Positions 39,821 to 41,360 of a stretch of DNA of 64,000 nt are shown piece by piece. This DNA comes from Bryobacterales bacterium (GTDB taxonomy: Bacteria; Acidobacteriota; Terriglobia; Bryobacterales; Bryobacteraceae), in contig PLOR01000019.1 of NCBI GenBank assembly GCA_003142185.1, positions 1 to 64,000 on the forward strand, read 5' to 3'. How positions within the stretch are numbered: the stretch's first letter is position 1; every line of letters begins with the position of its first letter. Both the position numbers and the translations under genes were made by a program. The notes below the pieces were generated by a model, which searched no databases, was not told the origin of the DNA, and saw only the letters and a program-made list of their open reading frames with translations.

Positions 39821-40034
39821 TCGCCGCGATAAACCGGCACGAGGCAGAGAATGCAAGAGTCTTACGAGAAAGGGTTAGCGCCCCGCTCGGCCTCGACTTT
39901 TGCGTCAGGTGCCGCGAGGTATCTGGCGAAGAGTAAACAAAGGTACAGGTGGGCTGGGTATCGAGCTTCGAAAAATTGCAATCAGGATGCCGACGCTCTG
40001 GATTTCGTAGTCATAGACCCCAGACACGCCTGGA

Positions 40035-40220: not shown

Positions 40221-41360
40221 ATGGTTAAACGGCTCTTGAACTACGCGTGTTTCGCAATCCTCTTTCCGAGCAGGTTGGTGTGTGGGGACGCTCCCACGTG
40301 GATGCAGGACACTGTGGCCCTGGGAATTCCGGCCGGCGCAAAGGCCCCCGGCTTTGAATTGCCCGACCAGTCGGGCCGTAAGCGCAGCATGGCCTCGTTG
40401 ATGGACCGGCGAGGCTTGGTCCTAGTTTTCTTTCGCTCGGCGGACTGGTGAGTGTATTGTAAAGGGCAGCTCGGCGAGCTGCAGCGCGATCTTCCTTTGC
40501 TCAAGCGGGCTGGCCTCGGCTTGGCAGCTATCAGCTACGATAGCCGCGCGGCCCTACGCGATTTCGCCTTGCGAAAAGGGATCGTCTTCCCCCTTCTGTC
40601 CGATCACGAGTCGGATGTGATTCGGGCCTATGGAGTTGCCGACCGCCGATATCACAAAGGCGCCCAACTCGATGTCGATTCTTCCGGCGAGGTTCCGGTG
40701 TATGGTTTGGCTTATGCGTCAGTGTTCGTTCTCAACCCTAACGGAACGGTGCGCTGGCGGTTTGTCTCGGAGCACGAGGAAGTGCGCCTCACCGTAAGCA
40801 GCATTCTGCAAAGGTCCCTCGGCCAGCTTGCGAATCAGTCCCGAACGCCTCTCGAAAGTGGCTGGATTCAGGTCGAGATCACGGCCAGCGACACGTCCGC
40901 GGGCATGGGCACCAGTTTGACGATCGGCGTCGAATTGCGAATACCGCGCGGGTGGCACATATACGGCCCGCAAGCCGGGGGGGACTACCGGGGGATCGCT
41001 TGGCGCATGGATTCATCGCAGTGCTCCATCGTCAGTGACACAGAGTACCCGGAGCCGAGCTGGGAGCAGCCGGCCTTTGCCGATGCGAAGCTGCCCGTGT
41101 ATGAGGGTAACATCAGGCTCACGCGCGAATTCGTTATCCGACCCATGATCAGCGACACACGAACGGCCGCGGACCGGTTTCGCAAGGCCTGCCTGGATTC
41201 CGACTCCAGGTTCCCTGCATCGGGATCGCTCGCGTTTCAGGCCTGCACTGATCGCGAGTGTTCACCACCGCAATCCGTTCCGCTGCGGTGGACTTTTGCT
41301 TTCACCCCTCCTGACCGCGAACGCGTGCCTATAGAACTCTGGCGAGCCTTTGAGCATTAG
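40221..41360 (+). CDS. Probable selenoprotein: redoxin (AhpC/TSA-like) fused to a DsbD N-terminal-like domain, UxxC motif
   Basis: Read through a TGA at 40449-40451 (codon 77), this is one continuous 379-residue protein. After a signal peptide (about 1-22) comes a redoxin domain: 'GIPAGAKAPGFELPDQSGRK', then 'LVLVFFRSADW-[TGA]-VYCKGQL'. Homologues of this family normally read SADWCPxC, so the TGA replaces the first Cys of CxxC, giving Sec77-Val-Tyr-Cys80. The redoxin fold continues to about 200. Residues about 215-375 resemble the DsbD N-terminal immunoglobulin-like domain ('PRGWHIYGPQAGGD', 'FQACTDRECSPPQSVPL'). Downstream of the TGA there is no plausible restart codon for about 150 codons. 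A hairpin at 40466-40482 fits a SECIS. Read literally without Sec, it would be a 76-residue fragment. Confidence 0.75.
40466..40482 (+). promoter_or_regulatory. Candidate bacterial SECIS hairpin
   Basis: A perfect 7-bp stem GCAGCTC/GAGCTGC with loop GGC lies inside the coding sequence. The loop is 22-24 bases after the TGA, within the window known for bacterial SelB-binding SECIS elements (roughly 16-37), and begins with G as they usually do. It is the only strong hairpin near the TGA. Confidence 0.6.

Follow-up and report, generated by a model that had tools for sequence, protein, structure and literature searches.

The locus at positions 40221 to 41360 (+) of the window, by which we mean the whole 64,000-nucleotide stretch of DNA analyzed here, raises the question of whether the TGA between two adjoining open reading frames is a stop codon or a codon for selenocysteine (Sec). 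The two frames make up a single frame that begins with ATG at 40221, ends with the TAG stop at 41358-41360, and gives 379 residues when the TGA is written as U. The TGA (40449-40451, +) is codon 77 and the sole in-frame stop; that is, the frame contains no other in-frame stop and no frameshift. It lies inside the sequence SADW-U-VY-C, and the alignment of homologues places it in a UxxC redox motif, Sec77-Val-Tyr-Cys80 (40449-40460, +). The initial annotation had proposed that the two frames form one gene and that the TGA falls on the first Cys of a SADWCxxC motif.

We compared this position among the homologues of the gene. A homologue was found at E <= 1e-20 in 113 of the 257 genomes of the window's order. 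When distinct loci containing the active site were counted (126 loci in the order), the equivalent of codon 77 was TGA in 116 and Cys in 10, and no other residue occurred. The homologues thus carry either Sec or Cys where the motif was expected to have its first Cys. The proposal of one gene is also borne out, because the Cys homologues read through this codon without a break, and the part of the frame beyond the TGA is under purifying selection, with a dN/dS of 0.40 between the window and an orthologue of 91% identity.

It could be argued that the TGA ends a first gene and that a second one is started from the adjoining codon. In the window, the codon right after the TGA is indeed GTG (40452), and an ORF of 302 amino acids begins there. 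However, a start-like codon after the TGA is absent in 133 of 140 Sec members, and a Pro codon stands there in 130. Two genes would also cut the active-site motif in two, whereas the Cys members run through it without interruption. We therefore regard an arrangement of two genes as extremely unlikely.

If the TGA is decoded as Sec, a bacterial SECIS element is expected just downstream, and the initial annotation had pointed to a perfect hairpin there. This hairpin was confirmed at 40466-40482 (+), where the stem strands 40466-40472 and 40476-40482 enclose the apical loop GGC (40473-40475). The structure, GCAGCTC-GGC-GAGCTGC, has a perfect stem of 7 bp, a G-first loop of 3 nt, and an energy of -11.5 kcal/mol. 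It starts 14 nt downstream of the TGA, and its loop occupies nt 22-24 after the TGA, so that 21 nt separate the UGA from the loop. In the window alone, the 61-nt stretch carrying the hairpin folds no better than shuffled sequences (z = +0.96), and the conserved peptide QLxEL accounts for part of the stem. The identification of the SECIS thus rests on the covariation of the stem among homologues and on the weaker stem of the Cys members, and not on the folding of the window sequence.

Across 116 Sec sequences, the cells of the stem were paired in 97.6%, and compensatory changes, most of them synonymous, were present in four pairs. The covariation score of the stem was 0.378, compared to 0.139 for shuffled and at most 0.089 for slid alignments. 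One pair joins the last base of the Gln codon to the opening base of the second Leu codon, and the two switch together. The combination CAG..CTG was found in 60 sequences, CAA..TTG in 51, and mixed forms in 5. Both bases are synonymous and the switch leaves the protein unaffected, but it was joint in 111 of the 116 sequences (p = 6e-27, a value that ignores relatedness). When phylogenetically independent pairs were used, 20 of 23 changes on one side of this Gln/Leu stem pair were accompanied by a change of the partner base, compared to 4-15 of 23 for control columns. For the loop-closing pair, the partner had changed in 25 of 29, against 4-19 of 29 for controls. At the loop-closing positions, the covariation follows N1-G-U-N4 (CTC-GTG or CTG-GTC), in agreement with the bSECIS consensus in the literature, where the bases on either side of the G[G/U]N core pair with each other (PMC13188914). 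A reading of the stem with a 24-28 pair, which is how the window's own loop pairs, was set aside, with 91.1% of cells paired versus 97.6% for the N1-GU-N4 reading (24-27 pair). The loop core was G-first in all 140 Sec members, and 133 of them were within the bSECIS energy limit. The mean hairpin energy was -9.9 kcal/mol in the Sec members and -3.4 kcal/mol in the Cys members. From these comparisons, we conclude that the hairpin is a genuine bacterial SECIS element.

A gene of this kind needs the Sec machinery, which had been predicted to lie outside the window. We found all of selA, selB, selD and tRNA-Sec elsewhere in the host genome assembly (5.79 Mb, 119 contigs): SelB at 371 bits (cut-off 242), SelA at 505 bits, SelD at 362 bits, and a tRNA-Sec with a tca (UCA) anticodon at 71.6 bits. 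The SelD gene (G000:C83:2848-3771, L160) has its own in-frame TGA in the sequence AAGUASKL. The host SelD is apparently itself a selenoprotein, and Sec synthesis in this bacterium would then hang on Sec decoding. For the gene in the window, SelB and the tRNA-Sec (UCA) would decode the TGA of codon 77, guided by the SECIS within the coding sequence.

The possibility that the TGA is recoded as another residue, such as Trp, genome-wide or locally, draws on the open frame and nothing more. All of the homologues without TGA have Cys at this position and never Trp, and both the Sec machinery and the covarying SECIS are present. We find this reading hardly credible at all. Taking the sequence evidence together, we consider that the codon-77 TGA is almost certainly decoded as Sec.

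What, then, would the protein do? The first of its two domains is an AhpC-TSA/redoxin domain at residues 39-179 (40335-40757, +; PF00578, 89.5 bits, E 2e-25). The second, at residues 223-352 (40887-41276, +; PF11412), resembles the N-terminal (alpha) domain of DsbD. The match of the window protein to this DsbD_N model of Pfam is marginal (25.3 bits against a cut-off of 25, E 1.6e-5), but both domains were matched in 50 of 50 aligned members, with DsbD_N reaching E 4e-12. The same 50 members share the invariant residues S73, A74, W76, U/C77, C80, Q340, C342, C347 and P350. Among these, C342-x4-C347 (QAC-TDRE-C-xPP; 41244-41261, +) is a redox cysteine pair of the DsbD-alpha type in the alignment. 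Both redox pairs, the U/C-x-x-C of the redoxin and the C-x4-C of the DsbD-like domain, are thus among the most strictly kept parts of the family. An immunoglobulin-like fold would be expected of a DsbD alpha domain; the predicted model of this region was mostly beta, but at a confidence (pLDDT 52, from four input sequences) too low to assign the fold. A phmmer search of the C-terminal half against the PDB gave no match at E 1.

The N terminus starts with MVKRLLNYACFAILFPSRLVCGD (40221-40289, +), in which a basic start is followed by a hydrophobic core. This hydrophobic stretch suggests a putative signal peptide and export. The product would probably be an exported redoxin of the thioredoxin fold in which Sec77 and Cys80 make up the active site; its fusion partner is a DsbD(alpha)-like domain bearing its own Cys342-x4-Cys347 pair. 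In the mode of action that we find most likely, DsbD or a similar membrane donor would reduce the alpha-like domain, this domain would reduce the selenenylsulfide of the redoxin, and the redoxin in turn would reduce disulfides (or peroxides) of substrates in the cell envelope.

There is a precedent for such a pairing, since nDsbD of E. coli donates electrons to the periplasmic thioredoxin-like protein CcmG (PMC3884852). The host genome also encodes a full DsbD on contig C2, with alpha, membrane and thioredoxin-like parts. Furthermore, contig C51 holds an unfused counterpart, in which a ResA-like, lipoprotein-like ORF with WCGPC and a stand-alone DsbD(alpha) ORF overlap on one strand (L208, ~559-1527 and 1442-1927; G000:C51, ~174.1-175.4 kb). 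Because of the precedent, the full DsbD and the unfused pair, the fusion is most simply read as an envelope relay. We hold the flow of electrons from the alpha-like domain to the redoxin as about an even chance. The DsbD on C2 (L207 1339-4422, minus) has features of its own, namely a CANC thioredoxin-like part and an extra C-terminal TlpA-like domain with WATWCVPC. The neighborhood pointed to no partner, as no neighboring gene recurred at more than 16 of the 126 loci when the neighbors were clustered. The flanks likewise showed no synteny with those of the 91% and 64% orthologues, except for a TonB-receptor match near L007.

The same selenoprotein might instead be a peroxidase of the peroxiredoxin type, in which the DsbD(alpha)-like domain serves as a resolving or recycling partner. 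The best relatives by sequence among solved structures are the Bcp/AhpE peroxiredoxins, with whose peroxidatic Cys the residue Cys80 aligns, and the redoxin-only relatives in the phylum are likewise Sec proteins. However, the peroxiredoxin motif PxxxT/SxxC is not kept, since Sec/Cys77 occupies the position of its Thr/Ser and the invariant Ser73 that of its Pro. For this reason, the sequence would favor the reduction of disulfides over that of peroxides. The UxxC pair is also the layout of thiol-disulfide oxidoreductases, and a proline typical of the cis-Pro position of thioredoxins is retained in 47 of the 50 members. We thus think that a peroxidase is rather unlikely, and that the protein is likely a putative exported thiol-disulfide redox enzyme. 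The best explanation of the whole, which we consider quite probable, is a selenoprotein that forms a self-contained electron relay of the cell envelope.

The redoxin-only relatives just mentioned (L198-L206), which come from other Acidobacteriota, carry the motif FxRGxW-TGA-xxC, mostly in the form W-TGA-P-(Y/F/W)-C, and most of them have hairpins of the QLGEL type. They lack the C-terminal domain and have RGxW instead of SADW ahead of the Sec. They are probably a second, separate clade of Sec redoxins.

The window's own copy departs from the family at several points. Among the 140 Sec members, a G in place of U at the second loop base is confined to the window and its 91% orthologue. The near-invariant P166 is absent from only 3 of 50 members, namely the window, the 91% orthologue and L007, and is replaced by A or S in the window clade. 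The DsbD_N part gave a dN/dS of 0.72 between the window and the 91% orthologue, which indicates fast evolution, and for this reason the window clade may be relaxing or specializing, as far as the sequences tell. The same deviations in the loop, at P166 and in the DsbD_N half could also be taken to mean that the TGA is a nonsense mutation or an assembly error, or that the gene is a decaying pseudogene in the host genome. However, an identical TGA is present in the 91% orthologue, whose assembly is independent, and in about 100 other genomes. This excludes a sequencing error, and the TGA is not a misread TGC or TGT. The intact frame and the purifying selection past the TGA, both described above, also speak against decay. 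A mutation, error or pseudogene is therefore very unlikely, and we keep to the reading of a functional selenoprotein gene. The claim on the family is nevertheless stronger than any claim on the decoding efficiency of the window copy. Just upstream of the gene, an Rfam match to the group-II-D1D4-6 intron was observed at 39856-40020 (+) of the window (84 bits, gathering threshold 49). It has no match to domains 5/6 and occurs as a single copy in the genome, and it is probably a remnant.

How far does the family extend? A profile search of 396 genomes of the phylum gave 66 near-full-length matches, most of them with one internal TGA, and among 28 further phylum loci examined, 24 had TGA and 4 had Cys. 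The restriction of this codon to Sec or Cys also holds in distant classes. On the sequences, the recoded gene family is spread across much of Acidobacteriota. Within the order, tRNA-Sec was detected in 194 of 257 genomes, which is a wider spread than that of the redoxin-DsbD(alpha) family. Further selenoproteins probably exist in the bacteria of the order. By form of the gene, compared with Fisher tests, tRNA-Sec was detectable in 92 of 102 genomes that contain the TGA form, 5 of 9 that have the Cys form only, and 96 of 144 that lack the gene. The ten TGA-form genomes without a detected tRNA-Sec are mostly fragmented or incomplete assemblies.

Parsimony on a midpoint-rooted FastTree tree placed Sec at the root and gave 10 changes, every one of them from Sec to Cys, although the count depends on the rooting. 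Some of these apparent changes fall in genomes in which tRNA-Sec was not found. In the genus coded g64, for example, four of the Cys forms belong to genomes without a detectable tRNA-Sec (G182, G189, G190, G192). A review calls the direction from Sec to Cys rare and documents it mainly for FdhA and SelD. We regard the repeated change from Sec to Cys in this family as a lead and not as proof. On balance, we somewhat favor the broader view that this is a phylum-wide, uncatalogued selenoprotein family of Acidobacteriota, in which each chain holds a complete envelope relay (DsbD-alpha and Sec redoxin) and Sec has repeatedly been lost to Cys.

The initial annotation had also suggested that the fusion may be undescribed. 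This stands for the fusion itself, but the redoxin part is a member of a superfamily already known to include Sec proteins. A catalogue of 2026 lists 119 families and subfamilies of prokaryotic selenoproteins (PMC13188914), and the redoxin-DsbD(alpha) fusion is absent from its Table 1. The window protein reaches no NCBIfam cut-off either; its score with SelL_rel_redox (NF040769) was 37.4 bits against 120. We found no description of the family in the literature on selenoproteins of Acidobacteria, Solibacter or Bryobacter or on DsbD fusions.

With its AhpC-TSA domain and UxxC, the protein fits the Sec superfamily of Prx-like proteins and redoxins. The Prx-like thiol:disulfide oxidoreductase selenoproteins (PF00578, UxxC/UxxU; PMC13188914, PMC1794560) likewise have the AhpC/TSA fold, Sec as the first residue of UxxC, and Cys homologues. 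Their catalogue entry names no second domain, whereas the present family has the DsbD(alpha)-like fusion and the SADW-U motif (PMC13188914). The catalogued "Redoxin family protein" (PF08534, UxxC; accession HEU0032618.1; PMC13188914) has a redoxin and UxxC in common with it. It may be like the redoxin-only RGxWUPYC proteins of other Acidobacteriota, although its record may conceivably contain a fusion that the catalogue does not mention. TsoB (NF045694; PMC13188914), another catalogued selenoprotein, also resembles a DsbD fusion. However, TsoB is rhodanese-like and has two Sec in UxxxxU, while the present family has a redoxin partner and one Sec, and its DsbD-like domain keeps the cysteines. 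Finally, DsbD or nDsbD with its clients CcmG and ResA (PMC3884852) shows the same pairing of an nDsbD-type C-x4-C with a CxxC-type motif of the thioredoxin fold. In contrast to that system, the partners here are on one chain without a membrane domain, and Sec takes the place of the first Cys.

Gene calling under table 11 halts at the TGA, and a gene of this kind is therefore easily split or lost in annotation. Acidobacteriota are hardly mentioned in the selenoprotein literature that we found, yet the gene is common in the window's order. Sec and Cys members are both numerous in the family, its SECIS is compact, lies in the coding sequence and shows compensatory pairs that arose naturally, and Sec appears to have changed to Cys repeatedly. 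These features make the family a good test case for the advantage of Sec over Cys in envelope redox chemistry. It also suits the study of how a SECIS decays after Cys replaces Sec.
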